A stretch of 64,000 nt of DNA, from positions 62,001 through 126,000 of the forward strand of contig NZ_JAGGKR010000001.1 of assembly GCF_017873855.1 (NCBI RefSeq), written 5' to 3'. Under the pieces are notes generated by a model. The model did not search any database, was not told where the DNA came from, and was given only the letters and a program-made list of their open reading frames with translations. This DNA comes from Methanolinea mesophila (GTDB lineage: Archaea; Halobacteriota; Methanomicrobia; Methanomicrobiales; Methanospirillaceae). Numbering within the stretch: the first letter of the stretch is position 1; the number at the start of each line of letters is the position of its first letter. Position numbers and translations under genes: made by a program. This document shows, one piece after another, positions 3,793-22,799 of this stretch.

Positions 3793-3793
3793 T

Positions 3794-5194
3794 CTATTCT
3801 CCCGCCTTTAAAAGCGGATGATACTTCCGGATATACTCTTTCTTTATCCGCTTCAGCTCGTCTTCCGGAAGGCTTGCCATGAGGTCCCACCCGATCCCGA
3901 GCGTCTCCTCTATCGACCGGTTCTGATCCCCCTGGGTGATGAATTTTTTCTCGAATTCATCTGCAAACGAAAGATACACCTTGTCCAGTTCGGTAAGTGC
4001 CTCCTCTCCCACTATCGCCACAAGTCTCCGCAGATCGCGCCCGTACGCATACGACGCGTAGAGCTGGTCCGCCACATTCCTGTGGTCTTCCCTCGTTTTT
4101 TCCGGCCCGATTCCGAGGTTCATGAGGCGTGAAAGGCAGGGAAGCACGTCGATTGGCGGGTCCGCCCCTCTCCGGTAGAGATCTCTTGAAAGCACGATCT
4201 GGCCTTCGGTGATGTACCCCGTAAGGTCGGGCACCGGGTGGGTGATGTCGTCGTCCGGCATGGTGAGGATGGGGATTTGCGTTATAGATCCGGATTTTCC
4301 TGTGATTCTTCCCGCCCGTTCATAAATCGAGGCAAGATCGGTATACATGTATCCCGGGTATCCCCTGCGCCCGGGGACCTCTTCCCGGGCGGTCGAAATT
4401 TCCCGCAATGCTTCACAATAATTTGTCATGTCCGTGAGAATGACGAGGACGTGAAGATTGTGGGTGTATGCCAGGAACTCGGCGGTGGACAGGGCACACC
4501 TCGGTGTCGCCACCCGTTCGATTGTAGGATCATCCGCGAGATTTAAGAAGAACACGACTCTTTCGAGGGCTCCTGTCCTTTCGAAGTCGTTCATGAAAAA
4601 CGAGGCTTCCTTATGGGTAATGCCCATGGCCACAAAAACCACGGCAAATGCCTCTTCCGCACCCGGGACACGTGCCTGACGGGCAATCTGGGCCGCGAGC
4701 TTGTTCGCCGGAAGACCGGATCCCGAGAAGATGGGGAGTTTCTGACCGCGCACGAGGGTATTCAGACCATCGATCGCCGACATCCCGGTCTGGATAAAAT
4801 CTGCGGGTTTATCGCGGGAATAGGGATTGATGGGTGTTCCCGATATATCCACGGAGTCCTCCGGGATGATCTCGGGACCTCCGTCCCGCGGTTTGCCTAC
4901 TCCGGTGAAAACCCGCCCCAGCATGTCCATCGATACATCGATGGCCGGCGCCTGACCGGTGAATCTCACCGAAGTGGTATCGCTGTCCACGCCGCTCGTC
5001 CCTTCGTAGACCTGCACCACCGCAAGGTCGTGCGAAATATCCAGGACCTGCCCGTTGCGTTCCTCTCCGCTTGGAAGCGTGATTCTTGCGGTTTCCCCGA
5101 ACGATACACCCATCGGGCGTTCCACGAATATGAGCGGGCCGGAGACGTAGCTGACCGTCCGGAACTCGCGGTCGAGAAGGGAAGGGACGCTCAT
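3794..5194 (-). CDS. atpB: A-type ATP synthase subunit B, operon 1
   Basis: Subunit B is the non-catalytic, regulatory nucleotide-binding partner of subunit A in the A3B3 hexamer. The 466-residue protein has the usual beta-barrel N-terminus, the ATPase core and helical C-terminus, and lacks a Walker A lysine loop as expected. In place of the loop it has [20 protein letters not shown]; the operon 2 copy reads [20 protein letters not shown]. The arginine-containing [18 protein letters not shown] stretch of the family is intact. Its start overlaps the end of atpA by four bases. Confidence 0.97.
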
Positions 5195-6930
5195 TCTTCC
5201 ACCTCCAGCGCCTCGATTTTATTCCGGATTTCATCCACGAACCCCTTGATCTGTTCCGCTGACTCGACTTCTTTCATCCGGGCAATTCCGGATTTTAGCG
5301 GGAGAGCCGAGACCTGGCGAAGGTTCACACCACGGCCCATGGCATCACTCACCGCCTCTTCGTATGCCAGGATGGCGGAAAGCATCCAGTACTGCTTTTC
5401 GAGGCGGCAGAAAGAATCGACATCACTATAGGCGCTCTGCTGGAGGAAATCTTCCCGGATCATGCGGGTCACTTCCAGTATTGCCTTCTCGCTCTCGGGC
5501 AGCGCGTCGGGGCCCACCAGCTGGACTATTTCCTGTAGTTCCACCTCCTTCTGTAGGAGGTACATCGTCCTGTCACGGAGCGCTTTCCAGTCGGAAGCAA
5601 CATTCTCCCTGTACCAGGGTTCGATGCTGTCGAGATACAGGGAGTAACTTTTAATCCAGTTCACCGAGGGGAAATGCCTGCGGTACGCCAGGTTGGTGTC
5701 GAGCGCCCAGAACGTGCCGGCAATCCTGAGAGTGTTCTGGGTAATCGGCTCGGAGAAGTCGCCGCCGGGAGGGGAGACCGCACCAACGATGGTGACCGAT
5801 CCTACCCGCTCTCCTTTCCCGAGGCATTCCACCCGCCCGGCTCTTTCATAGAATGCCGCAAGACGGGTGGCCAGATAGGCGGGGTACCCTTCCTCTCCCG
5901 GCATCTCTTCGAGTCTTCCAGAGACTTCCCTGAGCGCTTCTCCCCACCGGGAGGTCGAATCTGCCATGAGCGCCACGTCGTAGCCCATGTCCCGGTAATA
6001 TTCCGCCATGGTGATGCCGGTATATATCGATGCTTCCCTTGCTGCCACCGGCATGTTCGAGGTATTCGCGACAAGGACCGTCCGTTCCATCAGGGGAAGC
6101 CCGGTCCGGGGATCCACGAGCTCGGGGAACTCGGTCAGCACGTCGGTCATCTCGTTTCCCCGTTCACCACACCCGATATATACTACCACCTGCGAGTCAG
6201 CCCATTTCGCGAGAGTCTGCTCTGATACGGTTTTCCCGGTACCGAACCCGCCAGGGATCATCGCAGTCCCGCCCTTTGTGAGAGGGAACAGGAAGTCGAA
6301 TATTCTTTGGCCTGTAAGGAGGGGCGAAGTGGGATTCATCTTTCTTCTGTAGGGCCTTCCTTTCCTGACCGGCCAGAGTTGCATCATGGAAATGGTGGTA
6401 CCCCCCTCCAGGCTGCACACGGTGTCGGCGACAGTAAATTTCCCCTCGTGGATCTCGGCCACTTTTCCCGAAATCCCGGGAGGTACGAGTATCCTGTGGA
6501 CCACGTGGAACTCCTGGACCGTGCCGATGATATCTCCTCCCGATACTTCGTCACCGGTTTTTACGGAGGGAACGAACTGCCATTGGACGCTCCTGTCAAG
6601 ACCCGGGACCGAAATCCCTTTTGAAATGAAACTCCCGCTGGCTTTTGCAAGTACGGGTAACGGTCTTTGCACCCCGTCATAGATCGAGGAAATGAGCCCC
6701 GGCCCCAGTTCGACGGAGAGAGGTTGTCCTGTATTTTCCACGGGTTCGCCGATGGACAGACCCGTTGAGTCCTCGTATACCTGGACTACGGCCATATCCC
6801 GCTCAAGACGAATGATCTCTCCTGAAAGGGAGTATTTTCCCACTTTCACCACGTCATACATCTTCGAGCCCGTCATGCCTCCGGCAATCACTACAGGCCC
6901 TGATATCCTCGAAATTTTTCCCTGAATCAT
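5191..6930 (-). CDS. atpA: A-type ATP synthase catalytic subunit A, operon 1 (atypical P-loop)
   Basis: Subunit A carries the catalytic nucleotide sites of the A1 head and hydrolyses or makes ATP. The 579-residue protein has the N-terminal barrel, the A-type-specific inserted domain (about residues 110-190), the core with a P-loop at about 227-234, the [10 protein letters not shown] motif with its catalytic Glu, and a helical C-terminus. The P-loop reads GGFGTGKT where archaeal A subunits usually read GPFGSGKT, as the operon 2 copy does. The Lys and Thr are kept, so activity is expected. It is two bases after atpF and overlaps atpB. Confidence 0.97.
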
Positions 6931-6931
6931 T

Positions 6932-7252
6932 TCAGTGCCTCAATACCACGTTATACCCGATTGCCCTCCGCAGGAGGCGTTCGATATAGCCCGGTCCCGC
7001 TCCCCCCCGGAAATGCACGGGAATCGGCAGAATTATCGGCCTATACGTGCGTTCAATGCGTGCAATCAGTTTTTCATCGAGCAAATCGATAAACTCCTCG
7101 TTTACCGCGATTATCCCCGTATCGTCCCGCAGGAGCAGGGGCGGGATGATCTTCCGTGCCTCCTGGGGATCGGCAGCTTCCATGACTTCAACCCCGGTGA
7201 GCCGGAAGCCCGGGGCGGTATCCGGATCGGTGACTACAATGAATTTATACAT
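6932..7252 (-). CDS. atpF: A-type ATP synthase subunit F, operon 1
   Basis: Subunit F is a small Rossmann-like stalk protein that binds subunit D and the B subunits and can modulate activity. The 106-residue product begins [20 protein letters not shown], the normal N-terminus of the family. An upstream ATG at 7270 is in frame, but the start at 7252 is preceded by GGAGACACTCC and aligns with the operon 2 copy. It overlaps the end of atpC by eight bases and ends one base before atpA. Confidence 0.92.
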
Positions 7253-8294
7253 ACAGGAGTGTCTCCTCAACGTCTGCGTCCGATATCATGGCGGTTTTAA
7301 ACCTGCCGATAATCCGGATGTTCGTCACCTCGTTCTGTTTTTCAAACAGATACCCGATACAGAGCACACCTCCGAGAGGCTCGCTGTGATAGAGCGATGC
7401 CCCCTTGCGGACAAGATACCGGTCCATTTCTTTTTCGATAAGTGAGATTTCCGCGTTTGCAAGAGACTGAAGCGGCAGTGAGACCAGGAATTCATAGGAT
7501 GTTCCCTGGAGAACCGAGACAGCCTCCCCGATAGAGGGGGCGGCGACAAGTTTCCGGTACAGCTTGAGTGGCAGGTGGGTCCCGCCGGGAAGGAAATACT
7601 GGGCCGATTCCTCCGGGGAAATCCCTTCACGATTCATTTTTAACGCCGTCTTGATGTTGACGCTGTCAATCTCAGCCGCAAGGATCGATTGCATCAGCTT
7701 GTGATCCGCGGTCTTCCCTGTGAGGGTCTTTTTGGAGTTTTCATAGTGGAACAGATCCAGCGCATACTCCAGAGATGAGAGGCTGCCCGTTTCCGCGTAC
7801 TCCTTCATATGTGCGGTCAGCGGGCGGGTGTAGATCACATCCCATGTTGCGAGCAGATCCACGACACCCCGTACATCGCCCTGTTTTAACAGCTCATTGA
7901 GAAGGGCTGACGAGATCGTACCGGCTGGAATCAGGCATTCGGTGATCTCCTCCGGAGAGATATGGATGTGAATGCCCCTTATGATCGTTTTGAGATTGTG
8001 GATATCGTAGCGTGAAACGAAGATTCGCACGAAAATTTCGGCGTCACTGCCGGCGAGAAGGCCCTGGACTTTCCTGAATGTTGTTGCGAGATTTTTGCGC
8101 AGGGCATACTCTATTCCGCGGATTCCAGGATAAAGGACGGTACCTTCTTCGATTTCGGCCTTATAAGGAGTTTTTCCAAGCTCGGTCACCATCGCGGGGA
8201 TATCCGGCTGCACCAGAAGTGCTTCGTAGCCTTTCCGGTCCAGAAGACGGCTGTGCATTCCTCTAATCCTGGCGTTGGCGTATCCGTAATCCAT
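7245..8294 (-). CDS. atpC: A-type ATP synthase subunit C, operon 1
   Basis: Subunit C (the V-type d homologue) is the funnel-shaped socket joining the central stalk to the proteolipid ring. The 349-residue, mostly helical protein has the standard peripheral form: it starts directly with YGYANARIRGMHSRLLDRKG and has no membrane segment. Three internal V1-d-like helical units can be made out. It lies one base after atpE and overlaps atpF. The operon 2 copy has 48 extra residues before the equivalent of this start. Confidence 0.94.
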   Translation of the reverse strand: MDYGYANARIRGMHSRLLDRKGYEALLVQPDIPAMVTELGKTPYKAEIEEGTVLYPGIRGIEYALRKNLATTFRKVQGLLAGSDAEIFVRIFVSRYDIHNLKTIIRGIHIHISPEEITECLIPAGTISSALLNELLKQGDVRGVVDLLATWDVIYTRPLTAHMKEYAETGSLSSLEYALDLFHYENSKKTLTGKTADHKLMQSILAAEIDSVNIKTALKMNREGISPEESAQYFLPGGTHLPLKLYRKLVAAPSIGEAVSVLQGTSYEFLVSLPLQSLANAEISLIEKEMDRYLVRKGASLYHSEPLGGVLCIGYLFEKQNEVTNIRIIGRFKTAMISDADVEETLLYV

Positions 8295-8295
8295 A

Positions 8296-8880
8296 TCATT
8301 CTCCGAAGAGGATCCGGCAAACCTCCTTGTTATATACGTTCCGGGCCTTGTTCAGTCGTGATTCCAGGGTATTGTAAACCCTGATCCTTCCATCAGCAGA
8401 CGAGACTTCAACCCCCCCTGCGGTAACCAGGTCGGGGACCAGCTCTGCAGTGACAGATTTCCCTTTCAGGATGCCAATGGCGAGATCCTGGTCCCTTGGA
8501 TCGATATGAACCCTGATCTCCATTGCTTCGATCGCCGCAAGGGACTCTGTGAGGAGTTGTGCGAACTGCTCCCCGTAGGCGGGATCGGTTCTCGCTCTGG
8601 CGAGTCTTTCTCCGGCTTTCCGGAACGCCTCGTCCACGAGGCGCTCTTTTTCTGTCGTGGTAATAACATTCTCCTCGCCCCGGATCTGGTAAAGGGTCCG
8701 GTTCCTTTGATCTCTCGCCTCCGAATGTGCCTCATCCAGGAGGGATTGATGCACATAATCGGCTTTTTCAGATGATTCCCGGGTGATCTCCTCGACCCTG
8801 GCATTCGTTTCCGACCGGATCTCTGAGATCTTTTCCTCGGCACTCTCTTCCATGGACCGGACAAGGTCATTGTATGCCAT
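8296..8880 (-). CDS. atpE: A-type ATP synthase subunit E, operon 1
   Basis: Subunit E pairs with H to form the peripheral stalks that hold the A3B3 head against the membrane subunit I. The 194-residue protein has a long charged N-terminal helix (about residues 1-100, rich in Glu, Arg and Ala) and a compact C-terminal domain with VTAGGVEVSSADGRIRVYNT, the family's hallmark near the end. It ends one base before atpC. A 98-base spacer separates it from atpK with no clear signal beyond GAGAGGGGTGA ahead of the start. Confidence 0.93.
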   Translation of the reverse strand: MAYNDLVRSMEESAEEKISEIRSETNARVEEITRESSEKADYVHQSLLDEAHSEARDQRNRTLYQIRGEENVITTTEKERLVDEAFRKAGERLARARTDPAYGEQFAQLLTESLAAIEAMEIRVHIDPRDQDLAIGILKGKSVTAELVPDLVTAGGVEVSSADGRIRVYNTLESRLNKARNVYNKEVCRILFGE

Positions 8881-8978
8881 ACTCGATCGCGTCCGCTGTC
8901 ACCCCTCTCTTACTCGCAAAAACTATTCTATGGGCCAAAACTGGCGACATTTCACCACCCGGAACAAATCCGGTCAGG

Positions 8979-9197
8979 TTACTGCACCATTATGATGATC
9001 ATTGAAGCCACCACGAACCCGAGAATGACCAGGGTTTCGGGGATTGCTTCCAGGACAATAATGGTCCCTGACGTTTCCGGCCTCTCTGCAATTGTTCCTG
9101 CACCGGCCGAACCGATTCTCGACTGTGCCCAGGCAGTACCAATTGCTCCGCCAGCAAATGCGATAGCGGCCCCGATAGGGACTTCCCAACCGACCAT
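8979..9197 (-). CDS. atpK: A-type ATP synthase proteolipid subunit K, single hairpin, operon 1
   Basis: Subunit K monomers assemble into the rotor ring that carries H+ or Na+. The 72-residue product has two membrane helices joined by a polar AERPE loop at about residues 37-41. Helix 2 has the ion-binding carboxylate Glu54 in IPETLVILGF, and helix 1 has Gln25 at the position where Na+-binding c subunits have a ligand Gln. Whether it carries Na+, H+ or both cannot be told from this. The ribosome site GGAGAGGTG is strong, and the gene has its own TATA box, unlike atpK of operon 2. Confidence 0.95.
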   Translation of the reverse strand: MVGWEVPIGAAIAFAGGAIGTAWAQSRIGSAGAGTIAERPETSGTIIVLEAIPETLVILGFVVASMIIIMVQ

Positions 9198-9200
9198 TTA

Positions 9201-9209
9201 CACCTCTCC
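9201..9209 (-). promoter_or_regulatory. Strong ribosome binding site of atpK1
   Basis: The minus strand reads GGAGAGGTG four bases before the atpK start codon. It is among the best Shine-Dalgarno matches in this operon and fits a need for many copies of the proteolipid. Confidence 0.6.
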
Positions 9210-9232
9210 TATGCATAAGCATATTACTAATG

Positions 9233-9244
9233 TGATATAAAGAT
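9233..9244 (-). promoter_or_regulatory. Internal TATA box ahead of atpK1
   Basis: The minus strand reads ATCTTTATATCA, a good box A element, placing a transcript start near 9210 just before the atpK ribosome site. It sits in a 227-base, very AT-rich spacer between atpI and atpK, the only long gap inside either ATP synthase operon. It would let atpK-E-C-F-A-B-D be transcribed separately from H-I. Confidence 0.6.
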
Positions 9245-9401
9245 ATAGATGTTAGAAAATTGATTTTTTTCATAAAATCGAATTAAAAATATAACATTAA
9301 TTTCTCGTTCTTTTAATAAATAAATAATTCTGTATCCGGTAAAACATTTTGCGCGGTTTTTTTGAGTTTTGCTCTAATGAGTAAAATTAATTTTTAAATC
9401 C

Positions 9402-9436
9402 GGGGCAGAATAATTGTCTTTTTTTTATTCTGCCCC
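9402..9436 (-). terminator. Perfect 12-bp hairpin at the end of atpI1
   Basis: GGGGCAGAATAA at 9402-9413 is the exact inverse of TTATTCTGCCCC at 9425-9436, with an 11-base loop. The atpI stop codon lies inside the stem. On the minus-strand transcript the loop is A-rich; further AT-rich sequence follows. It could end part of the H-I transcripts or protect the 3' end of a processed one. Confidence 0.6.
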
Positions 9437-11347
9437 TTTATCTCTCCCGAAAGGCCGGTATGGTTCACCCCCTCCCTCGTAAAATTTCGAATAGAATTCC
9501 ACGATGTGAAGCCGGACCGAATGCAACGACGGGCTGAACATCGCGAGAATGACGTTGAGGGCATGAAGAAGCGTAGCGATAAGTATTCCAACCACTGCAA
9601 CGCCGAGTGCGCCCCCGAGCTCGTTCGCTACGAGGGCAAGAATAACGGATGCCATCCCTATGGCCATGATACGGGCATAGGAAAGGATGTTCCCCAGCGT
9701 GCTCATTACCTCTATCGCGCCCATCGTTCCACCCCCATAGATCAGGAGGGGGACGAATACCACCATGAGTGCCGCCGCAATAATTGTCCCGAATTCCGGG
9801 ATTATACCCATTAACGTAACCACCAGGATGAGAATGCCGGCAATTACGCCCATCATCCCGATCTTTTCAAGGAGGTGTTTCTTCTTTCTGCGGTATATCG
9901 CGTTGAGTGCGCCAAGCGAGAGGCCGATATAGATGTGGATAACGCCGATTACGATGGCCAGCACGAGAAGAGGTACTATCGCCTCCAGCCGGTTCCACGT
10001 GATCCCGAAAAGAGTAACAGGCTCTATCCAGCCCATTTCTTCGCCGAGGTTCCCGAAAAATTCCCCGTAGAGAAACCCGAAGAATATGGTGGGTATCGCA
10101 CTGATAAGAAGGATGTTTGCGAGCTGCTGGATCCATTCCATCATTTTGAACCTCCATTTCATCACCAGTGCGAATGCAATGATACAGAGCCCGTATCCGA
10201 TATCCCCCACGATCACTCCGAAAAAGAGAGGGAAAAAAATCGCCATGAGGGGGCTTGGATCGATCTCGACATACTTGGGCGGGCTGACCAGCTTCATGAA
10301 GAATTCGAATGGTTTGACCCACCGGGGATTATCATAGAACGTCGGGGCGTTCTCGAGTTCCTCTGCCGAGACATCCATTTCAGATACCACCACCCTGTTC
10401 CCGAAGGCATCCGAAAGGGCTGCTTTTGTCCTCTTTAAAAATTTTTTCGGGATCCATCCCCGGATTAGAATAGTGTTTTCCGACTGTCCGAAACGGTTCA
10501 GGGCACGTATCTCTTCGAGCCGGTCCTCGAGCAGCCTGGCCAGTGTCGATATTTCCAGGTATCTTCTGGAAGAGAGCGCGGCGAGGTCGCCGTCGATGGT
10601 CTTTATCTCAGTGTCGATCTCCTCCTTGTTTCGTGCTATCGCATTAAGGGCCTCGTCCAGGGGTATATTCGCATACTCGCGGGGAATTCTCACCTCGTTG
10701 ACATTCTGCGAGAACAGAAAGGAATGGACCTGTTCGGAGTATTTCTTGGAAAAAACGGTTATTGCCGCAATATTATTTTCGTCGAGTTCCGCGGTGATGA
10801 ATTCAAACTGGTTGTGGGTAATCGCCTTCAGCTGCGGACGAACGAGGTCGAGAATTTCGTGGAATTCCTTCTGGATAAGCAGGACCGTGACTTCAAACCC
10901 CTCTAAAAGAGGGACCTGGCTTTCAATGGGCTGGATTTTTCCCATTATTCTTGCATAGTTGTCGAGTGTGGTACGACGAAGCTCAAGATCCGACCTTCGG
11001 TTGGCAAGCTCTCTGGTATGACTCTCAAGGTTGGAGATCACCTGATATGCCCGCGCAATGAGGGCGCTCGTAGAGAGTTTCTGGAGCGATTCCTCACAAT
11101 CTCCCATTTTTACGGGTTCTTCGTCGGATACAGGCAGGATGTGGGCGATTCCATGGAGTTTCACCAGGAGGGCAGATATTTCTTCTTCTTTGGGAACTTC
11201 CATCCTGGTAAAAATCTCCTGTCCATTCTCCAGAATGCCCGAGATATCCTGAAGATGTATCGTACCCTCCCGGTACAGCACGTCGATTATCTCCTGGTAA
11301 TCCCTTCTCGGGCCCACTACCAGGACGCTCTTCATCTTCTGAAGCAT
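9425..11347 (-). CDS. atpI: A-type ATP synthase membrane subunit I (a subunit), operon 1
   Basis: Subunit I is the stator that provides the ion half-channels next to the K ring. The 640-residue protein has a soluble, coiled-coil N-terminal half (about 1-330) that binds the peripheral stalks and a C-terminal half with about seven or eight membrane helices starting near FEFFMKLVSPPKYVEIDPSP. LSYARIMAIGMASVILALVA near the end contains the conserved membrane Arg needed to release the ion from the rotor Glu. It begins one base after atpH. A spacer with a hairpin and new promoter follows it. Confidence 0.95.
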   Translation of the reverse strand: MLQKMKSVLVVGPRRDYQEIIDVLYREGTIHLQDISGILENGQEIFTRMEVPKEEEISALLVKLHGIAHILPVSDEEPVKMGDCEESLQKLSTSALIARAYQVISNLESHTRELANRRSDLELRRTTLDNYARIMGKIQPIESQVPLLEGFEVTVLLIQKEFHEILDLVRPQLKAITHNQFEFITAELDENNIAAITVFSKKYSEQVHSFLFSQNVNEVRIPREYANIPLDEALNAIARNKEEIDTEIKTIDGDLAALSSRRYLEISTLARLLEDRLEEIRALNRFGQSENTILIRGWIPKKFLKRTKAALSDAFGNRVVVSEMDVSAEELENAPTFYDNPRWVKPFEFFMKLVSPPKYVEIDPSPLMAIFFPLFFGVIVGDIGYGLCIIAFALVMKWRFKMMEWIQQLANILLISAIPTIFFGFLYGEFFGNLGEEMGWIEPVTLFGITWNRLEAIVPLLVLAIVIGVIHIYIGLSLGALNAIYRRKKKHLLEKIGMMGVIAGILILVVTLMGIIPEFGTIIAAALMVVFVPLLIYGGGTMGAIEVMSTLGNILSYARIMAIGMASVILALVANELGGALGVAVVGILIATLLHALNVILAMFSPSLHSVRLHIVEFYSKFYEGGGEPYRPFGRDKGAE

Positions 11348-11910: not shown

Positions 11911-11920
11911 TTAATATAAA
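11911..11920 (-). promoter_or_regulatory. TATA box of ATP synthase operon 1
   Basis: The minus strand reads TTTATATTAA within a longer AT-rich run. It would start transcripts near 11886, about 20 bases before the GTG of the small leading ORF. Confidence 0.6.
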
Positions 11921-12059
11921 TAAATTACCTATACGGAAGATCGTTCAGTATGGCGCTGCATTGCATTCTCAGGCAAATGATACCGCAGCTGCCCGGATAT
12001 TCTTCCTGCCCGGGAGGTCACACCTCACAACCCGGACCCGTATCAGGGGGGAGATATCC

Positions 12060-12965: not shown

Positions 12966-13133
12966 AGCGGAAATAAGGAGATAAAGAAAGAGCGCGAGGC
13001 CTATCAGGATCGAAGCATAAAATGCAATCTCGAAGAAAATGAATAATTTCTGGATGTATTTTCGGGCTCGCCTGCTTTTCATCAGTTCCTTAAGCCAATC
13101 GTCGCGGGGATAAAAATGAGGGTGATGTCTCAT
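12957..13133 (-). CDS. Small single-helix membrane protein ending ATP synthase operon 2 (AhaG-like position)
   Basis: This 58-codon gene encodes a His/Arg-rich N-terminal half ([20 protein letters not shown], then a basic stretch) and one membrane helix at about residues 30-55 (IFFEIAFYASILIGLALFLY). Its ATG overlaps the atpD2 stop as ATGA, as do most genes of this operon, so it is very probably translated. In Methanosarcina the aha operon ends with ahaG, a small gene of unsettled function after ahaD; position and size suggest the same role here, but I cannot confirm homology. Nothing comparable follows atpD in operon 1. It overlaps the convergent stress-protein gene. Confidence 0.7.
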   Translation of the reverse strand: MRHHPHFYPRDDWLKELMKSRRARKYIQKLFIFFEIAFYASILIGLALFLYLLISASA

Positions 13134-13780
13134 CCCTGCTCCCCTTTGAGAAGCTGTTTGGTACGTTTGCGTCGGAACTGGTCCTCGCGTTCTCTCTCTT
13201 CCAGGTGCATCTCGATATACCGGTGTGTCGCCTGGATCTGGGGGATATAGATCTTTTCCAGCGCATTTACCCTTCTCCGGGTTCGCTTCATCTCCCGGTT
13301 TATCCGCGTGATAGTTCCTTCGAGTTCTGCCAGGCGCAGCAATTCGCCAAGGAGGTTCTCGAATTTTTCAAGTGCCTCGTCGAGTACGGCGGAAGTCCCG
13401 AGGATGCTGTATCCGAGACCGGAGGATGTGCCGGGTCTTTTCTCCTGCAGAGGGATCCGGGGAACCGAAACTCCCATGACTTTGGCGGTATCCATGGGAA
13501 TGTCAGGAATACCGGGAATGGAATGGGCGATCATTTCCACGCTGGTGAGTCCCATGAACATCTCAGCCCGTCCAAGGGTCCGGAGTGCGTTTTCAAGGGA
13601 CTTGTTCACGAGTTCTTTCTGTCTCAGGTAGGGCTGGCGGTAGGAGAGGTACGCGATGGTCATCGCATCCAGTTTTTCTTCCAGCAGATCGTGACCTTTC
13701 TGTGCCAAAACCTCCTGCCGCTTTAGTTTCAGCAGTTCGATCCTGGTCGGCCGGATACCCGGGGCGAGGGAGGGGCTCAT
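13130..13780 (-). CDS. atpD: A-type ATP synthase subunit D, operon 2
   Basis: This 216-residue central-stalk coiled coil starts with [20 protein letters not shown] and ends with [20 protein letters not shown], the two paired helices of the shaft. It overlaps atpB2 at its start and the small membrane gene at its end, both by four bases. It is clearly a paralogue of the operon 1 subunit but differs at many positions, so the duplication is not recent. Confidence 0.95.
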
Positions 13781-15174
13781 ACTTTGCCGCTCCTGTAATG
13801 CGGGTGATAGGTGCGGATCGTCGCCGTATCGATGCGCCTGAGTTCGCTCTCGGGGAGCAGCGCCAGGAGATCCCAGGCCAGATCGAGAGTTGCCTCGAAC
13901 GTCCTGTTCTCTTCGGCATCCTGGCCGATAAATTCCTTTTCGAAGCGATCCGCGAACAACAGATAGTTACGGTCGATATCGGTGAGTGCCTCCTCCCCGA
14001 TCACTGCGACCAGCCCCTTCAGTTTTACGCCCTGTGCGTATGCGGAATAGAGCTGGTTGTTGACTTCGGCATGGTCCTTCCGGGTCCGCCCCTCGCCGAT
14101 CCCGCCCTGCATAAGCCGGGAAAGGCAGGGGAGCACGTTGACAGGCGGATAAATCCCCTTGCGGTGAAGGTCCCGGGAGAGCACGATCTGCCCCTCGGTG
14201 ATGTACCCGGTAAGATCGGGCACCGGGTGCGTGATATCGTCATCAGGCATCGTGAGTATCGGGATCTGGGTGATGGAACCATTTCTGTCCCGTATTCTTC
14301 CCGCCCTTTCGTAAATGGTCGCGAGATCGGTATACATGTACCCCGGGTATCCCCTGCGCCCCGGCACCTCCTCCCTCGCAGCGGCGATCTCTCTCAATGC
14401 CTCGCAATAATTGGTGAGATCCGACATGATCACCAGAACATGCATCCCCTTCTCGAAGGCGAGGAACTCCGCGGTGGTGAGTGCCAGCCGCGGGGTGATG
14501 ATTCGTTCGATCACCGGATCATCCGCAAGATTCAGGAACACGACCGCCCTTTCGAGCGCACCCGTAGTTCTGAAATCCTTCAGGAAATACGCCGCTTCTT
14601 CATGCGTAATTCCCATCGCCGCGAAGATGACCGCAAACTGTTCCTCCTGTCCCCGGACCCTGGCCTGCCGGGCGATCTGGGCCGCAAGGAGATTATGGGG
14701 AAGGCCGGCTCCCGAAAATATTGGGAGTTTTTGCCCTCTGACAAGCGTATTCATCCCGTCAATCGCGGACACCCCGGTCTGGATGGAATCGCGGGGATGT
14801 TCGCGGGCGTACGGGTTGATGGACGATCCATGGATATCGCGAATCTCTTCGGGTATCGGGAGCGAACCTCCGTCAAGCGGATTGCCGGTGCCGTCAAAGA
14901 CCCTGCCGAGCATCTCCCCGGTGACTCCGATATGCATCGTCTCGCCGGTGAACCTGACCCGGGTGGTATACGTATCGAGATCGCGGGTGGATCCAAAGAC
15001 CTGGACGATGGCCCTGGCAGTCCTTGTCTCAAGCACCTGGCCCTGGCGTTTTTCGCCCGACGGCAGGGTTATCACCGCCACTTCCCCGTAGGCAATTCCC
15101 TCGACTCCATCAACCACCATGATCGGGCCCTCCACACGTGAGACGGAGGTATACTCTCTCGCACTGTGTGTCAT
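13777..15174 (-). CDS. atpB: A-type ATP synthase subunit B, operon 2
   Basis: This 465-residue non-catalytic hexamer subunit has the A-type family features: [18 protein letters not shown] at the N-terminus, [20 protein letters not shown] in place of a P-loop, and [20 protein letters not shown] in the core. It is full length. Four-base overlaps join it to atpA2 and atpD2. Its GC-rich reverse strand produces a long open frame (13585-15141, plus strand) that I regard as a shadow. Confidence 0.97.
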
Positions 15175-16958
15175 TCGCTCTCCACCCCCACGGCAGAGAA
15201 CTCCGAGCGGAGTCCGGAATCGATCTGCCGGAATAGCTCCGCGGAATCTTCAGGGGATACCGTACCCATCCGTGCAAGCATGCCTTTCACCGGGAATTCC
15301 CGGATGGTCTCCGCGGTTACCCCGAGGGCCACCGCCCTGTCCGCAAGCGAGAAAAAACGGATATCGGCCAGGACCATCCGGACAAGTTTTTCGGGGCCGG
15401 TATAGGTGTCGTGGGGATGGAACGCGTACTGCATCAGCAGGCTTTCACGGATTATCTCGGCTTTCAGGAGCACCAGACGGTCGGTTTCAGGAAGGACTTC
15501 CGGCCCCACGAGCTTTATCAGTTCCTCCAGTTCGTTCTCCCGCTGCAGGATGACCATGAGTTCCTCCCTCATCTTTCTCCATTCCGGGTTCTCGTTCTCC
15601 TCCCACCAGGCGTCCACCGCGCCGGAATACAGTGAATACGAGTTCAGCCAGTTGATCGCAGGGAAATGTCGGCGGTAGGCGAGTTCCGAATCCAGGGCCC
15701 AGAATACTTTGACCATGCGGAGGGTGTTCTGGGTCACCGGTTCGGAAAAGTCCCCTCCCGGAGGGGATACTGCTCCGATGACCGAAACCGAACCCGTCGC
15801 GGGTTGTTTCCCAATCGTGATCACTTTTCCGGCCCTCTCGTAAAAATCTGCCAGCCTGGAGCCGAGATACGCCGGGTAACCCTCTTCTCCCGGCATTTCC
15901 TCCAGCCGGCCGGAGATCTCTCTCATGGCCTCCGCCCATCGCGAGGTTGAATCCGCCATCAACGCCACGTTATAGCCCATGTCACGGTAATACTCGGCAA
16001 TGGTTATCCCGGTATACACAGACGCTTCCCGGGCCGCGACGGGCATGTTGCTGGTATTCGCGATAAGGACCATGCGGTTGATGAGCGGTTCCCCTGTCCG
16101 GGGATCCGGGAGTCTGGGAAACTCCGTCAATACATCGGCCATCTCGTTTCCCCTCTCCCCACAGCCCACGAACACCACGATATCGGCACTGGCCCACTTT
16201 GCGAGCTGGTGCTGTACGACAGTTTTTCCGGATCCGAAGGGCCCCGGTATTGCCGCAGTCCCTCCTACCGCGATCGGAAAAAAAAGATCGATGACCCGCT
16301 GTCCTGTCAGCAGCGGATCGCCCGGTTCGAGTTTGGTAGTTATGGGACGGGGGACCCTTACAGGCCATAACTGCTCCATGGTGAGCGGGACCCGGCCCGT
16401 GGCCGTTTCCAGGATACCAATGTCGTCCTGAAGGGTATAGTCACCTTCATCCGCGATCCGGGTGAACCTGCCGGCGAGCCCCGGAGGGACCATGACTTTG
16501 TGGACGATTGGTCCCTCCTGGACATGCCCGAGCACATCGCCGCCTGTCACGGTGCGGGAGGATTCCCCCGAAGGCATGAACGTCCAGGAGGCGGTGCGGT
16601 CAAGCGGGGGGACCCTGCTTCCCTTCGGAATAAAATCTCCCGAAATCCCGAACATCTTTTCGAGCGGACGCTGGATGCCGTCAAAAATGCACCCGAGAAG
16701 GCCGGGACCGAGCGCCACCGAGAGGGAACTTCCCGTACCTGTAACGGGTTCCCCGGGAATCATTCCCGCAGTCTCCTCGTAGACCTGAATCGTTGCCGAT
16801 TCCCCTTCGAGGGCGATGATCTCCCCTATCAGTTCATCCTTTCCGACCCTGACGATCTCGTACATGCGGGCCCCGGTCATCCCCCCTGCCTGCACCACCG
16901 GACCGGTTACCCTGACCACCGTTCCGGGATTTCCTGGTTCCCTCATCATTCTTTTCAC
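15171..16958 (-). CDS. atpA: A-type ATP synthase catalytic subunit A, operon 2
   Basis: This 595-residue catalytic subunit has the canonical P-loop GPFGSGKT at about residues 239-246, [11 protein letters not shown] with the catalytic Glu, and the A-specific inserted domain between about 120 and 200. The sites look fully active, closer to the archaeal consensus than the operon 1 copy. It overlaps atpF2 and atpB2 by four bases each. The N-terminus [12 protein letters not shown] is slightly longer than that of the operon 1 copy; the Met-4 or Met-5 codons could also serve. Confidence 0.97.
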
Positions 16959-17254
16959 CTGACCTGATGCGGGAGTACATTTACACCGGGCGGAAGTTCT
17001 CCCGTATCTTCTTCCGTTCCGAGGACTACCATTACAGGATAGGCCCCCTTTTTCATCTGCAGCGCGGCTTGTATTCTGGAGACCGAAGATTTCAATGCAC
17101 TGTCGACCACGATCACCCCGACTTCGGGGTCATGAATCCACCGGCCGATCACCTCCTCGTCTTCAGCCCCGGGGACTGTCGCGAGCGTGTTCTCGATTCC
17201 CGCCAGCCGGAAACCCCGGACCATCCTCGGGTTTCCGATCACGGCAATTTTCAC
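16955..17254 (-). CDS. atpF: A-type ATP synthase subunit F, operon 2
   Basis: This 99-residue stalk subunit begins MKIAVIGNPRMVRGFRLAGI, matching the family's first beta strand and loop. VGVIVVDSALKSSVSRIQAA covers the middle of the Rossmann-like fold. It overlaps both neighbours by four bases. Confidence 0.92.
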   Translation of the reverse strand: MKIAVIGNPRMVRGFRLAGIENTLATVPGAEDEEVIGRWIHDPEVGVIVVDSALKSSVSRIQAALQMKKGAYPVMVVLGTEEDTGELPPGVNVLPHQVR

Positions 17255-18441
17255 GATACCGCCTCCTGCAGGACCAGGTTCGGCAACGCCTCTTCAAGCG
17301 TCCGCATTTCGAATCCTGTATGGAAGAATATACGAAGATTTCTCATCTCGTACTTCCTGGAAACCGCAAATTTGATGAGCGGGCCCCCGGTAAGGTGGTA
17401 CACCGACGAAAGCCCTGTTGCTTTGGCAAGCATGTACCGGTCCAGGGTAAGTTCACAGGCTCCGAGATCTATGCTGCTTCCTGGTACCTGTACGAGGGGT
17501 TCGAGGACATGGAAATATTCGGATCCCTCCAGCTGACGGAGGATATCCGCCGGACGTGCGCTTTCATAAATCTGCCTTAACCGCCACTCTTCGTAGTATG
17601 CGCCCCCCGGGACCAGCCAGAGGGACACCAATTCCAGGGGAAGATTTCGGGATTTTGCCCTTAAAAGGGTAAGAATGTTGGTCACATCCGCGTATACCCC
17701 GGTAAATGCAAGCACCGCCGGGAGGACTGCGGGATCCACCCTGCCTTTGCTTGCATTGAGATTTTTCATCACGTACAGCCTGACGGCGGATTCAAGCGGC
17801 CCGATGCTCGAGGTTTCCTCATATTCCGGGAACGCTGCCGCCAGAGGGGCGACGTACGGTGTGCCCTGCAGTCTTGAGATAAGATCCTTGATATCGGTGC
17901 TTTCACCGATGCTGTCGATAAGCGCCGGGGTGATACATCCGATCTCTGCGATATGGGCGGGAGCACCCGGACGGATGCCTGCCGAATAAACCGATCTTAA
18001 CGCGGCGATTATCTGTTCGCCCTCGAAAATGCCTATGTACGCTGAGAAAAACGGGCGGATCGCGTCCGGGAGCGAGGCCCCCATCTTCTGGATCTCCTGA
18101 TAATGCCATGTTTCGAGTATTTTTTCCACCCCCTCGAGCGTTGTATTTTCAGGAATTTGCGGCCCTGCGCCTGACTCCATAAGGACGGTGAGAAACTCGG
18201 AGAACGATCCCGACTCCGCGAGGGCTTCCGCCTGCGACCTCGTTACGAAGGGGTTTCCCACAGCCTTCACCCTCGCAACGGGATAGGCAAAGAGCGCAAT
18301 GTTCAACAAAACACGGAAATACCCAAAAAATGTACCGATAATCAGGATTACCAGGACAAGCAGGGCAAGACCCACGAGGATCATGGCGACCGGGTCGACA
18401 GCGATGGAGCTGATCAGGGTATCCAGATCCCCGGGTGTCAT
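17251..18441 (-). CDS. atpC: A-type ATP synthase subunit C with an extra N-terminal membrane anchor, operon 2
   Basis: This is the d-like socket subunit, but at 396 residues it has about 48 more N-terminal residues than the operon 1 copy. Residues 19-39 (AMILVGLALLVLVILIIGTF) form a strong membrane helix followed by another hydrophobic stretch, after which the family N-terminus appears (FAYPVARVKAVGNPFV, aligning with YGYANARIRGMHSRLL of operon 1). Subunit C is normally peripheral and sits on the cytoplasmic face of the K ring, so a covalent anchor is unexpected. The start overlaps atpE2 by four bases and no later Met would remove the helix without losing the coupling. The helix may lie inside or beside the ring. 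Confidence 0.92.
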   Translation of the reverse strand: MTPGDLDTLISSIAVDPVAMILVGLALLVLVILIIGTFFGYFRVLLNIALFAYPVARVKAVGNPFVTRSQAEALAESGSFSEFLTVLMESGAGPQIPENTTLEGVEKILETWHYQEIQKMGASLPDAIRPFFSAYIGIFEGEQIIAALRSVYSAGIRPGAPAHIAEIGCITPALIDSIGESTDIKDLISRLQGTPYVAPLAAAFPEYEETSSIGPLESAVRLYVMKNLNASKGRVDPAVLPAVLAFTGVYADVTNILTLLRAKSRNLPLELVSLWLVPGGAYYEEWRLRQIYESARPADILRQLEGSEYFHVLEPLVQVPGSSIDLGACELTLDRYMLAKATGLSSVYHLTGGPLIKFAVSRKYEMRNLRIFFHTGFEMRTLEEALPNLVLQEAVS

Positions 18442-19049
18442 GTCCGCCCTCCTCGTACGGGAAAGAGAATATCTGATGTCTCGATGATCAATGCCCGCTT
18501 TAATCGTTCCCTTCTTGCTTCGAAGGTGTTGTCGACTGTTATTTTCCGTTCGGGGGCTGCCAGGATCATTCCCCCGGTGGTGTCCAGCGAATTCCCGGTC
18601 ACCGTGAGTGAAATATGTTCTCCCGGGAATGATTCGGCGACGGACATAGCGAGTTGTCGATCTTCGGGATGGACGGAAATTTCAGCCTTTCCGGTTCCAA
18701 GTATATCCAGGGCCTCCTCCAGGAGATGCCTGAATATATCCCCGTATTCCGGCGAGTTCCGTACCGAGAGAAGGGATTCCTCCGCACGGGAAAAGCATCC
18801 GGCGACGAGGGAGTCACGGAACTCCCTCACCGTGTTCCTGGAATCCATCCGGGCCTGCGAAAGTGTCTGCTGGACGGAGATCTCGGTCTTTTTTGACTCC
18901 GACCGATGCAGGGAGGCGTATTCACGCTCCGCGTCCTTTGCAGCCCTCGCAATTATCCCTTTCGCCTCCTCCTCGGCCGTGGAAGTGATTATCCGTGCCT
19001 CTTCTTCTGCGTCTTTTCTAATTCTTTCCTCGATCGCTTCCAGGCTCAT
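18438..19049 (-). CDS. atpE: A-type ATP synthase subunit E, operon 2
   Basis: This 203-residue peripheral-stalk subunit has a long charged helix (residues 1-100, with AEEEARIITSTAEEEAKGII) and a C-terminal domain with LDTTGGMILAAPERKITVDN, the family hallmark. It overlaps atpC2 by four bases and is 15 bases after atpK2, one of the few small gaps in this operon. Confidence 0.93.
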   Translation of the reverse strand: MSLEAIEERIRKDAEEEARIITSTAEEEAKGIIARAAKDAEREYASLHRSESKKTEISVQQTLSQARMDSRNTVREFRDSLVAGCFSRAEESLLSVRNSPEYGDIFRHLLEEALDILGTGKAEISVHPEDRQLAMSVAESFPGEHISLTVTGNSLDTTGGMILAAPERKITVDNTFEARRERLKRALIIETSDILFPVRGGRT

Positions 19050-19064
19050 CGTTCCTCCGCTCGG

Positions 19065-20510
19065 TCACATGGTGAAAATCCCCAGGCCAAAGAGTATGAG
19101 AATCGCCACGAGCAGACCGAATATCGCGAACGTCTCCGACATAGCGGCGAACACCAGGCTCCTTCCCATTGCTTCGGATCTGCGGGCAGTGGCGGCAATT
19201 CCTGAGGCACAGGTGATTCCCTGACCTATTGCTGAAAATCCTCCGAGTCCTACGGCAATCCCCGCACCGATGGTGGCAATCCCGACGCCGAGCGTGGTGA
19301 TGAAATCATGGGTGATCATACCGGTGAACACCATTATCAGGATGGCGACGAGCAGTCCGTAAATCGCCTGTGTTTCACAGATCGCAGAGAAGACTACTCC
19401 CTTTCCAAACATTTCCGGTTTTTCTCCCGTTGCCGCGATTCCGGCGGATGCCGCAATCCCCTGCCCGATAGCCGACAGCCCCGCGAGGCCGACCGCGAGC
19501 CCGCCTGCGATCGCCGCAAATCCCACGGCAAGGGTAAGGGTCATGTCGCCGGAGATGAGGCCGGTGAAGGCCATCAAAAGGACCGCGACCAGAAGACCGT
19601 AAATCGCCTGGGTCTCGCAAATCGCTGCGAAAACAATCCCTTTTCCGAACATCTCCGGTTTTTCCGCGGTCGCGCCGATCCCTGCAGCGGCGGCGATCCC
19701 CTGCCCGATTGCAGAGAATCCCGCAAAACCCGTGGCAAGTCCGGCACCGATGCAGACCACTCCTGCCGCAAGGGTGGCGACGAGGTTTCCGGTAAACATC
19801 CCGGTGAACGACATGATCAGGATCGCTGCCAAAAGGCCGTAAATCGCCTGGGTCTCACAGATCGCGGCAAATACTACTCCTTTTCCGAACAGTTCCGGTT
19901 TTTCCGACGTGGCCGCGACACCCGCCGAAGCGGCAATCCCCTGCCCGATCGCCGATGTTCCCGAAAGACCGATGGACAACCCGCATCCTATCCCTGCAAG
20001 ACCCGCGGCCGTGGTCGCGATGTAGTTGCCGGAGAGCAGTCCGGAGAAGACGAGTATGAGAACGGCGACGAGCAACCCGTAAATCGCCTGAGTTTCGCAT
20101 ATAACCGAGAATACGACGCCTTTCCCGAAAGTCTCGGGGCGCTCGGCGGCCGTTGCGACGCCGGCTGATGACGCGATCCCCTGCCCGATCGATGAAAGTC
20201 CCGCCAATCCTACGGCAAGACCTGCTCCCACCGCGGAGAGCCCGATAGGAATGGGAATATCCCCCGCGGTACCTCCCAGGAAACCGCCCGAAAGCAGGAT
20301 GAGAACCGCAACGAGAAGCCCGTATATTGCCTGCGTCTGCGGAATTGCGGTAAAGATAAGCGCCATACCAAATTTTTCGGGTTTTTCCGCGGTCACTCCG
20401 GCCGACGCCGCTCCGGTGATACCTACCCCTATGCCTGCCCCTATCGCAGAGAATCCGACCGCAATTCCTGCCCCGATGGCAACAAGCGCGGTCCCTGGCC
20501 CGATTGGCAT
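19065..20510 (-). CDS. atpK: Six-hairpin fused proteolipid subunit K, operon 2
   Basis: This rotor-ring subunit is 481 residues long instead of about 70-80, and consists of six two-helix hairpins in one chain with a period of exactly 80 residues. The membrane Glu is at 139, 219, 299, 379 and 459 (ICETQAIYG in repeats 2-5, MSETFAIFG in repeat 6). Repeat 1 has IPQTQAIYG, with Gln58 in place of Glu, so it should not carry an ion. Helix 1 of repeats 2-6 has the Ser-x-Ile-Gly-Gln-Gly motif with Gln at 110, 190, 270, 350 and 430; repeat 1 lacks it. Repeats 2-5 thus contain Gln plus Glu-Thr-Gln, similar to the ligands that bind Na+ in the Enterococcus hirae K ring. Fused proteolipids are known in Methanothermobacter (two hairpins), Methanocaldococcus (three) and Methanopyrus (13). 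It starts at the atpI2 stop (TGATG). Confidence 0.96.
   Translation of the reverse strand: MPIGPGTALVAIGAGIAVGFSAIGAGIGVGITGAASAGVTAEKPEKFGMALIFTAIPQTQAIYGLLVAVLILLSGGFLGGTAGDIPIPIGLSAVGAGLAVGLAGLSSIGQGIASSAGVATAAERPETFGKGVVFSVICETQAIYGLLVAVLILVFSGLLSGNYIATTAAGLAGIGCGLSIGLSGTSAIGQGIAASAGVAATSEKPELFGKGVVFAAICETQAIYGLLAAILIMSFTGMFTGNLVATLAAGVVCIGAGLATGFAGFSAIGQGIAAAAGIGATAEKPEMFGKGIVFAAICETQAIYGLLVAVLLMAFTGLISGDMTLTLAVGFAAIAGGLAVGLAGLSAIGQGIAASAGIAATGEKPEMFGKGVVFSAICETQAIYGLLVAILIMVFTGMITHDFITTLGVGIATIGAGIAVGLGGFSAIGQGITCASGIAATARRSEAMGRSLVFAAMSETFAIFGLLVAILILFGLGIFTM
19065..20510 (-). repeat. 240-bp tandem coding repeat in atpK2, six copies
   Basis: On the plus strand the stretch GTAAATCGCCTG recurs at about 19357, 19597, 19837 and 20077, with a diverged copy near 20317 (GTATATTGCCTG) and one near 19117, always 240 bases apart. 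The period equals the 80-residue protein repeat, and copies 2-5 are the most alike, suggesting amplification of an internal unit or gene conversion. Confidence 0.9.
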
Positions 20511-22483
20511 CAGGCATCACCCCGGACCGAGTACATGCGTTCCATCCGGAACGGGGTGAATGCCTCCCCTCCGCCTATGAAGAACTTGCTGAAGAATTCG
20601 ATGTACTGGAGGCGGATTGAATGAATCATCCCTCCAAGGCTCTGGATAATCAGATTGAACAACTGTCCTCCGAGGAACACCAGGACCGCGAGTACCACGA
20701 GATAGGGGCTGACCTCCGCGACGAGCTCGGCGAGAATGTTTACCGTCATGGCGATCCCCCCGGTGGCCAGTGCCAGTGCGAGAATACGGACATACGAGAG
20801 CCAGTCCCCGAGGAATCCGGTGAGTGCAAAGAAACCCATCGGTCCCCGGGAATAGAAAATTATCGCCAGCCCGGCGACAATTCCGGCGACAGCCACATAC
20901 AACACGTTCGTCCCAGCCGTGATCCACCCGAAAAACACTGCCATGAGAATGGCGGCAGAGGGCTGGATGATAAACCAGACGCCCTGGTCCATCAGCGCCG
21001 GATTGTATTCCTTCTTCCTGATGTTCTGATAAAAACCGAGAGTAAGACCGAGGTTGATGTGAAGGATACCCAGCAGGAGCGCAATCTGGAACATAGCAAT
21101 AGGATCCTTTATCGGTTCGAGGAGCACGAGGGGCGGGGAAATGCCAAAGAAACGACTGGGTACATCCCCGAACCATCCCCCCTGAAGCGTGCCGAAAATT
21201 ACCGCCGATATCCCGCACCAGGTCAGGATGATGGAGAGATCATGGAATACGGAGCTCGAGCGACGGAATCTCCAGTATAGCAGGAATCCGGAGAGGGTCA
21301 GCAGAATGCCATACCCCGCATCGCCGAGCATAAGCCCGAAAAATATGACGAAGATGGGTGCCATGAACGGAGTGGGATCTATCTCGCCGTATTTCGGCCT
21401 GGCGAACATGGTGGTGAGAAATTCGAATGGCCGCAACCAGCGTGGGTTGTCATACATTACCGGGGCCTCCTGGGGACTCTCCACTTTTTCCGGGCGTGTT
21501 GAAAAGAAATGCCCGCATGTGGATCTGTCCATCGCGGCAGTGAATGAATTCACTTCGCGTGCCGGGATCCACCCGCTCAGGTAGGTTACATCCCGGCTGG
21601 ATCCGCTCTTTGGGATAAGATCCAGTTCCTCTTTCCGTATACGGAGTTCTTCCCTTATCGCGAGAAGTTTCCTCTCGTAGGTATCCCTGAACATTTCGAG
21701 ACTGTTGATTCGTTCCCTCTCGTGCTCGCGTAACTCCCTGATCCGGTCGCGTATCGTGGCAAGGGCCTTATCGGGCGTTCCCTCGCACTCCTCACAGTGT
21801 AGTACCGAGACACCCGAAAGACGGAACGAGGGATGGATGGATGGTCGCAGGTGTGCGGGGTACGCAATGAGAACCACTTCCCCGTCCTTTGCAGTTTTTT
21901 TATCAATGAAAATCTCTTCGGCACCTGCGGCCGTCACCTGCTGTAAAAACATCCCGGTTTCTTCTTTTTTTACCATTACTGCGCTGACGGAGAAGGTGGT
22001 AAAATCACCGAGCAGGGCGAGATCCAGCTGAAAAGGAAGGAGAAGATTGACATCGCTCTCCCTTCTTTCCAGGGACTGGACCTTTTCCCTGATGGTGATC
22101 AGGGCCGACTTGTCCCGGAGCGTACCCTCGGTTTCTGTAAGAAGTGTGTCGATCTGCCTGAAACAGTCCTCAATGGATTCGACCCTGACGGGAAACGGGT
22201 TCGCGTCGGGAGGAGTGAAGAACAGCCCGAGTGCTCTCACCATGGAGGCGGGGATTTCTTCGAACGTGTCGAGCACCTGGTTCAACCGCACCTGGTACTC
22301 CGCACACCTGTCGAGTAACTCCGGACGAATTCCCGGTTCAAGGGATCCCTGGAGCGGGGAAGTCGGATCCTTCAGCGGGATCACTTCCATCATCCCGGCC
22401 TCATACATGGCTTCCACCCCTTGCATCCTGAAGGCATTATGAACGCCCACATTCAGCATGCACATATCAGAAGGGTAAAACAT
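20510..22483 (-). CDS. atpI: A-type ATP synthase membrane subunit I (a subunit), operon 2
   Basis: This 657-residue stator has a soluble N-terminal half with coiled coils and a membrane half beginning near YDNPRWLRPFEFLTTMFARP. LSYVRILALALATGGIAMTV holds the conserved membrane Arg. The N-terminus MFYPSDMCMLNVGVHNAFRM fits the family, and the start lies 17 bases inside the end of atpH2. It must work next to the six-hairpin ring, so its interface should differ from the operon 1 copy. atpK2 begins on its stop codon with no spacer. Confidence 0.95.
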   Translation of the reverse strand: MFYPSDMCMLNVGVHNAFRMQGVEAMYEAGMMEVIPLKDPTSPLQGSLEPGIRPELLDRCAEYQVRLNQVLDTFEEIPASMVRALGLFFTPPDANPFPVRVESIEDCFRQIDTLLTETEGTLRDKSALITIREKVQSLERRESDVNLLLPFQLDLALLGDFTTFSVSAVMVKKEETGMFLQQVTAAGAEEIFIDKKTAKDGEVVLIAYPAHLRPSIHPSFRLSGVSVLHCEECEGTPDKALATIRDRIRELREHERERINSLEMFRDTYERKLLAIREELRIRKEELDLIPKSGSSRDVTYLSGWIPAREVNSFTAAMDRSTCGHFFSTRPEKVESPQEAPVMYDNPRWLRPFEFLTTMFARPKYGEIDPTPFMAPIFVIFFGLMLGDAGYGILLTLSGFLLYWRFRRSSSVFHDLSIILTWCGISAVIFGTLQGGWFGDVPSRFFGISPPLVLLEPIKDPIAMFQIALLLGILHINLGLTLGFYQNIRKKEYNPALMDQGVWFIIQPSAAILMAVFFGWITAGTNVLYVAVAGIVAGLAIIFYSRGPMGFFALTGFLGDWLSYVRILALALATGGIAMTVNILAELVAEVSPYLVVLAVLVFLGGQLFNLIIQSLGGMIHSIRLQYIEFFSKFFIGGGEAFTPFRMERMYSVRGDA

Positions 22484-22799
22484 CGGATTTACCAGTTATG
22501 CGGTTCACTATGTGCGTTACGGCTTCACCGAGTTTTGGCTCGCTATCTTTTTGAATTTCCGCGACGCGTTCTTCTCCTTCATTTCGGATCTTCGCGGCGG
22601 CAAGATCTGCAATCCTGTGGCTCTCGGCTCTGGCCTGCTGGACTTCGGCCCATCCTGCTTCTATCGATCTTCGCTTGATGGCTTCCGCTTCGGTCCTTGC
22701 ATCGTTCAACAACCGTTCTGCCTCCGTGCGTGCCTGGGACAGCGTCGTCAGTGCGTGGTTTTCTGCGAGCTTGATCCGGGCAATCTCATCATAGACCAT
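22467..22799 (-). CDS. atpH: A-type ATP synthase subunit H, operon 2
   Basis: This 110-residue peripheral-stalk protein is a long charged helix (LAENHALTTLSQARTEAERL and similar heptads). It is the first gene of operon 2; GGTGGATT precedes the ATG. Its 3' end overlaps atpI2 by 17 bases. Confidence 0.88.
   Translation of the reverse strand: MVYDEIARIKLAENHALTTLSQARTEAERLLNDARTEAEAIKRRSIEAGWAEVQQARAESHRIADLAAAKIRNEGEERVAEIQKDSEPKLGEAVTHIVNRITGKSDVLPF

Follow-up and report, generated by a model that had tools for sequence, protein, structure and literature searches.

Fused K subunits of two, three and 13 hairpins, among them the proteolipid triplication of the M. jannaschii type, are already published (PMC2359735), and an earlier note on the DNA studied here was right to list these forms as known. 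In M. kandleri, each of the 13 hairpins of AtpK has the full set of Na+ ligands, and the chain was proposed to form a monomeric ring (Lolkema and Boekema 2003; PMC2359735). Silent hairpins are already known as well, in E. hirae and A. woodii. In NtpK of E. hirae (2bl2), the K subunit of a V-type Na+-ATPase that works as an ATP-driven pump, every chain contributes two hairpins but a single site, and the ring contains 10 chains (20 hairpins). The Acetobacterium woodii c1/c2 ring (4bem) is an F-type rotor of one two-hairpin and nine one-hairpin chains, for which an ion/ATP ratio of 3.3 is cited in PMC5662883. For Methanospirillum hungatei, PMC4704411 describes three A-type clusters, with Aha2 and Aha3 adjacent. 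In chemiosmotic energy conservation, the ion-to-ATP ratio is the central constant, and for methanogens it is difficult to determine the stoichiometry of the rotor.

Here, we analyzed AtpK2, a rotor subunit with six hairpins and five carboxylates that is encoded in a 64,000-nucleotide stretch of the Methanolinea mesophila genome (the window; coordinates refer to it unless stated otherwise). The M. jannaschii-type proteolipid, which reportedly has two carboxylates in its three hairpins (Ruppert et al. 1999), resembles AtpK2 in having fused hairpins in one chain, n-1 carboxylates and one blank hairpin; with six hairpins and five carboxylates, AtpK2 falls outside this type. The M. kandleri AtpK is likewise a long single-chain rotor subunit of a methanogen A-type ATP synthase, but the six hairpins, blank hairpin 1, five sites and chain junctions of AtpK2 set it apart from a monomeric rotor. 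The best match in both sequence and structure is E. hirae NtpK, which also has a blank first hairpin with P-x-T-Q followed by a Gln/Glu hairpin with equal ligand positions, but differs in hairpins per chain and in function. As in our reading of AtpK2, a silent hairpin reduces the number of Na+ sites in the A. woodii ring. A related genome (G023, likely M. hungatei JF-1) resembles the present one in encoding a fused K with a blank first hairpin close to a one-hairpin K, but its fused K has three hairpins instead of six. In the searchable literature, which does not include most subscription journals, we found no report of a six-, four- or twelve-hairpin AtpK, of a limitation to divisors of 12 or of a dead site at every junction.

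AtpK2 is the rotor subunit of a second A-type ATP synthase

The atpK2 gene is a single open frame of 481 aa with an ATG start on the minus strand (20510..19065); the earlier note had given the right coordinates without a strand, and the plus-strand reading of 19065..20510 is interrupted by stops. The atpI2 stop and the atpK2 start overlap in TGATG, with a GGTGA-like site just 5' of the start. PF00137 matches AtpK2 in six stretches (330 bits and E 1e-100 overall, above the curated cut-off), and the cut-offs of NF004913, NF011483, NF006219 and TIGR01100 are exceeded as well. An AlphaFold2 model based on an alignment of 25 chains contains six helical hairpins (mean pLDDT 91.6, pTM 0.90), as does the count by hairpin HMM, which confirms the fused six-hairpin proteolipid proposed from the sequence. 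Among solved structures, the E. hirae K subunit 2bl2 fits best (1.2 Å over 150 columns), in a match that spans two hairpins and cannot tell 30 from 18 degrees per hairpin.

Self-comparison of the chain by autocorrelation gave peaks at lags 80, 160 and 240 only (52%, 49% and 42% identity). The 80-residue period noted before is therefore real but not strictly exact, since the outer-helix motif occurs at residues 55, 136, 216, 296, 376 and 456, with spacings of 81, 80, 80, 80 and 80. At the DNA level, the repeat units are just 48-74% identical and their longest exact shared word is 20 nt, so reads should place uniquely, and chance, repeat collapse and repeat expansion all fail as the origin of the array. 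An assembly artefact, which the earlier note had named as grounds for doubt, was rejected for this reason and because equal counts are found in the single-contig genomes G037, G044, G250, G925 and G928 and six hairpins occur in about 46 distinct chains. Compared with orthologues, atpK2 shows a dN of 0.08-0.14 with saturated dS.

AtpK2 is encoded in a complete HIKECFABD operon (13130..22799, minus strand). It begins with atpH2 for the stator stalk (22467..22799), which matches V-ATPase_G_2 and archaeal subunit H weakly, and atpI2 for the a subunit (20510..22483; PF01496), which has the conserved Arg in SYVRILALALA and SIRLQYIEFFSKF. Downstream of atpK2 follow atpE2 (18438..19049; PF01991), atpC2 (17251..18441; PF01992), atpF2 (16955..17254; PF01990), the catalytic subunit gene atpA2 (15171..16958; PF00006, PF16886, P-loop GPFGSGKTV), atpB2 (13777..15174; PF00006, PF22919) and the rotor axle gene atpD2 (13130..13780; PF01813), all on the minus strand. 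TIGR01043 and TIGR01041 were the best matches of atpA2 and atpB2, respectively, but under their cut-offs. With PF00137, the surrounding I/E/C/F/A/B/D genes and at least one outer-helix carboxylate, AtpK2 has the features of an A/V-type rotor subunit c/K, and atpK2 is the rotor subunit gene of a second, complete A-type ATP synthase.

A one-hairpin paralogue is present, as noted before, but in a separate neighbouring operon (3115..11347, minus strand): atpK1 (8979..9197, minus strand) encodes 72 aa with a Q/ETL site. A third A-type operon of the genome, near 560-568 kb of contig C1 (G000:C1:560000-568500), has another one-hairpin K. In relatives of the same family (e.g. G007, G012, G020, G023, G024, G036), a fused K and a one-hairpin K lie about 10-11.5 kb apart on the same strand.

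Predicted ion sites along the chain

Along the minus strand, the six hairpins of AtpK2 differ in their ligands. Hairpin 1 (aa 7-78; 20277..20492) is blank: it reads Q58 T59 Q60, has no carboxylate and no TM1 Gln, and Q58 (codon 20337..20339) stands at the position of the ion-binding carboxylate. Glu occupies this position in the other five hairpins, namely hairpin 2 (aa 89-159; 20034..20246; site Q110/E139), hairpin 3 (aa 169-239; 19794..20006; Q190/E219), hairpin 4 (aa 249-319; 19554..19766; Q270/E299), hairpin 5 (aa 329-399; 19314..19526; Q350/E379) and hairpin 6 (aa 409-479; 19074..19286; Q430/E459), the last of which ends E-T-F and has no Gln for a following site. These positions are strongly conserved: Q58, T59, Q60, Q110, E139, T140, Q141, Q190, E219, T220, E299, T300, Q301, Q350, E379, T380, Q381, Q430, E459, T460 and F461 are the same in all 25 six-hairpin chains compared, and Q221 and Q270 are conserved in at least 90% of them.

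In E. hirae NtpK, Na+ is reportedly bound by Leu61, Thr64, Gln65, Gln110 and Glu139 (Murata et al. 2005). The phmmer alignment with this protein (2bl2) places Q110 and E139 of AtpK2 on Q110 and E139, and T59 Q60 on its T-Q. Five complete sites are predicted on this basis (T59/Q60-Q110-E139, T140/Q141-Q190-E219, T220/Q221-Q270-E299, T300/Q301-Q350-E379 and T380/Q381-Q430-E459), so that the Enterococcus-type set, to which hairpin i-1 contributes Thr-Gln of its outer helix and hairpin i contributes Gln of its inner and Glu of its outer helix, is found at five of the six interfaces. What remains is the junction between chains, which offers T460/F461, no inner Gln and Q58 in place of Glu. As the step from hairpin 6 to hairpin 1 of the next chain thus lacks the Gln/Gln/Glu ligands, chain junctions would be silent. 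Judged from its sequence, AtpK2 would have five Na+ sites of the Enterococcus type per chain, plus a dead one precisely where two chains meet. The presence of this dead site in hairpin 1 had escaped the earlier note and alters the ion stoichiometry.

The same arrangement, with V/QTQ in the first, Q/ETQ in the middle and Q/ETF or ETY in the last hairpin, is found in nearly all chains of three, four and six hairpins and also in chains of twelve. In some DHVE2-type six-hairpin chains, the middle interfaces are altered (Q/ETP, L/ETQ).

The Q/ETQ ligands suggest Na+ as the coupling ion, with the caveat that similar motifs occur in H+-coupled enzymes. Instead of a Na+-driven synthase, the enzyme might be H+-coupled or pump ions at the expense of ATP, an alternative that overlaps with the different ring sizes considered below and that we regard as doubtful. 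Two further A-type ATP synthases in the genome would leave operon 2 free for another role, and V-type pumps such as that of E. hirae K have the blank-hairpin design too. Against this, the full Na+ ligand set is conserved at five interfaces, and 10 sites in 12 hairpins would fall in the synthase range, whereas dedicated pumps have only half the density of sites. Site density and genomic context are our grounds for taking the enzyme to act probably in the direction of synthesis.

The complementary changes in the first and last hairpins also bear on whether the chain stays intact. AtpK2 could be a polyprotein that is cut into single hairpins after synthesis and then assembles into an ordinary ring. 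We found nothing in favour of this reading and consider it highly improbable, because the conserved changes make sense at chain ends only, the distance between hairpins is constant in length in Methanomicrobiales and AlphaFold2 gives a confident continuous fold.

Hairpin numbers in related chains

AtpK chains were surveyed by genome searches and a scan of named genomes from several archaeal phyla, with Methanobacteria, Methanococci and Methanopyrus outside the sample; as the searches shared genomes, together they cover fewer genomes than their sum. Hairpins per chain were counted by profile HMM, as regex motif counting undercounts divergent hairpins; many chains came from MAGs, some of them fragmented. 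We obtained distinct complete chains with two (n=25), three (n=15), four (n=23), six (n=46) and twelve hairpins (n=3), and every intact number seen divides 12. No intact chain with 5, 7, 8, 9, 10 or 11 hairpins was present among the surveyed chains. Two apparent five-hairpin chains were rejected as frameshifted assemblies: L135 continues in another frame to a sixth hairpin, followed by the contig end, and L164 is split over several frames.

The six-hairpin form, which had looked unusual to the earlier note, is not a one-off: it is found in many genomes of Methanomicrobiales, several of them single-contig, being common in this order, and in Thermoplasmatota several independent lines reached it. 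A tree built from individual hairpins places first hairpins in one group and last hairpins in a second, and the middle hairpins cluster within lineages, which indicates that the middle of the chain was expanded repeatedly. The concatenated A+B+I tree requires at least 15 changes in hairpin number, with six reached at least five times and twelve reached twice; changes from four to six recur, with no extant fives.

Twelve-hairpin single-chain AtpK was observed in MAGs of halophilic Thermoplasmata (L040, L042 and L047) and was reached by two routes. L040 and L042 are head-to-tail fusions of two six-hairpin genes that kept the internal dead junction at hairpin 7, and L047 results from internal expansion of the middle and has just one dead hairpin, hairpin 1. 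Each of the three chains is possibly a whole ring in one polypeptide. An AlphaFold2 model of a twelve-hairpin chain, built from a three-sequence alignment, reached a pLDDT of 34.

To assess the divisor pattern, we considered the changes that end at three or more hairpins, leaving out the carboxylate-free chain L174. All 12 of them land on divisors of 12, which gives P ~0.005 under a null in which targets fall geometrically with about the observed mean. Depending on the assumed bias, P ranges from 0.085, if gains strongly favour small numbers, to 1e-5.

Ring size and ions per ATP

How many hairpins close the ring determines the ion-to-ATP ratio of AtpK2. On balance, we lean towards a Na+-type rotor in which two chains supply 12 hairpins and 10 sites, for a ratio of 3.33 ions per ATP; among the ring sizes considered, such a two-chain ring, already suggested in the earlier note, is the one best backed by the survey of hairpin numbers. 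In this model, a chain starts with a blank hairpin at the N-terminus, continues with four inserted full hairpins and ends with the C-terminal hairpin, and every internal interface would form one NtpK-type Na+ site from the outer-helix Thr and Gln of hairpin i-1 and the inner-helix Gln and outer-helix Glu of hairpin i. Two chains would close a ring of 24 helices with two silent positions 180 degrees apart, so that the rotor would skip one site at each chain junction and 10/3 ions would pass per ATP. The gene, its six hairpins, the ligand pattern with its conservation and the hairpin numbers are direct observations, and we infer closure at 12, Na+ as the ion, the ratio of 3.33 and action as a synthase.

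The 11 solved entries of A/V rings with single-hairpin subunits comprise 132 chains, 12 in each. The main reason for our limited certainty about 12 is that the hairpins of AtpK2 are closer to those of E. hirae K, with its 20-hairpin ring, than to Thermus K; a single AtpK2 hairpin scores 62 bits against the former and 39 bits against the latter. A ring of 20 is nonetheless disfavoured, as 3, 6 and 12 do not divide 20 while the absent 5 does.

The main alternative is a ring of 24 hairpins, in which four six-hairpin chains with 20 sites would translocate about 6.7 ions per ATP, trading ATP yield for work at very low ion-motive force. The numbers 3, 4, 6 and 12 also divide 24, and such a ring would come nearer to the size of the V-type ring with its 20 hairpins, to which both the hairpin similarity and the best structural match (2bl2) point. 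We consider it unlikely, since it would permit an eight-hairpin chain, of which none was found among 87 distinct intact chains with at least three hairpins, and since single chains of 12 (surveyed) and 13 hairpins (M. kandleri) suit a ring near 12.

Ring size could also depend on lineage (e.g. 18, 20, 21), with the divisor pattern arising from a preference for small numbers and from doublings. The weaker P value under a steep small-number bias and the 20 hairpins of E. hirae are in line with this explanation. We rate it as quite unlikely: the number five, a divisor of 20 that falls between the common states four and six, is never found intact even though changes from four to six recur, and twelve was reached twice by different routes, i.e. 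fusion of sixes and internal expansion.

Returning to the ring of 12, its extension to a branch of the A-type ATP synthases is a proposition that we regard as evenly balanced. Here, ring size would be fixed at 12 and every junction silent, and chains of three, four, six and twelve hairpins, filling equal rings with four, three, two and one chains, would move 8, 9, 10 and 11 ions in one turn (2.67, 3.0, 3.33 and 3.67 per ATP), other lengths being absent as unable to close the ring. The 6+6 fusion chains would have 10 sites rather than 11. Fusion length would thereby set the ion-to-ATP ratio at unchanged ring size. The Methanopyrus AtpK with its 13 hairpins speaks against a universal 12.

With a ring fixed at 12 hairpins, the gene sequence would suffice to read the stoichiometry in this AtpK family. 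If true, this natural silent-site series would show how ratios from 2.67 to 4 evolve at constant ring size, amounting to a series of gears without change of ring diameter. This would have a bearing on H2-limited, syntrophic methanogens with several ATP synthases, which live near the thermodynamic limit. Moreover, structural and single-molecule studies would find unusually simple objects in rings of two chains or one.

Further observations on AtpK chains and neighbouring genes

Some chains in the survey showed additional peculiarities. L108/L174 (G069:C1, ~81.5-82.6 kb) is a three-hairpin AtpK without any carboxylate and with QTQ in each hairpin, and a one-hairpin AtpK with a full Q/ETQ site follows about 21 nt after it. 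The pair resembles a four-hairpin unit that was divided into a blank chain and one active hairpin; if so, its ion ratio would be very low. Many Thermoplasmata chains (L039, L042, L045, L047, L054, L058, L062, L072, L116, L118) have a signal-peptide-like start and an extra N-terminal domain of about 80-150 residues, in some cases with a PKD-like WDFGDG motif; going by these features, the domains would sit on the ring, outside the cell. An archaeal 12-hairpin AtpK was also found on L041 (PWFW01000126.1); the bin of this contig is labelled Halanaerobiaceae bacterium, so that it is probably mis-binned.

The three A-type operons of the M. mesophila genome have three types of K site, namely Q/ETL in operon 1, six-hairpin Q/ETQ in operon 2 and E/ETI in operon 3. 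The P-loop of the catalytic subunit A of operon 1 (5191-6930, minus strand) reads GGFGTGKTV, compared with GPFGSGKTV in operon 2. Between both ATP synthase operons of the window, a gene for a two-domain universal stress protein is located on the opposite strand (11898-12965, plus strand). A probable operon for a membrane [NiFe]-hydrogenase of the Ech/Mbh type is located just downstream of these two operons (406-2355 and L204:11222-16356); its subunits were assigned by Pfam as antiporter-like, NADHdh, 30 kDa, 49 kDa and ferredoxin.
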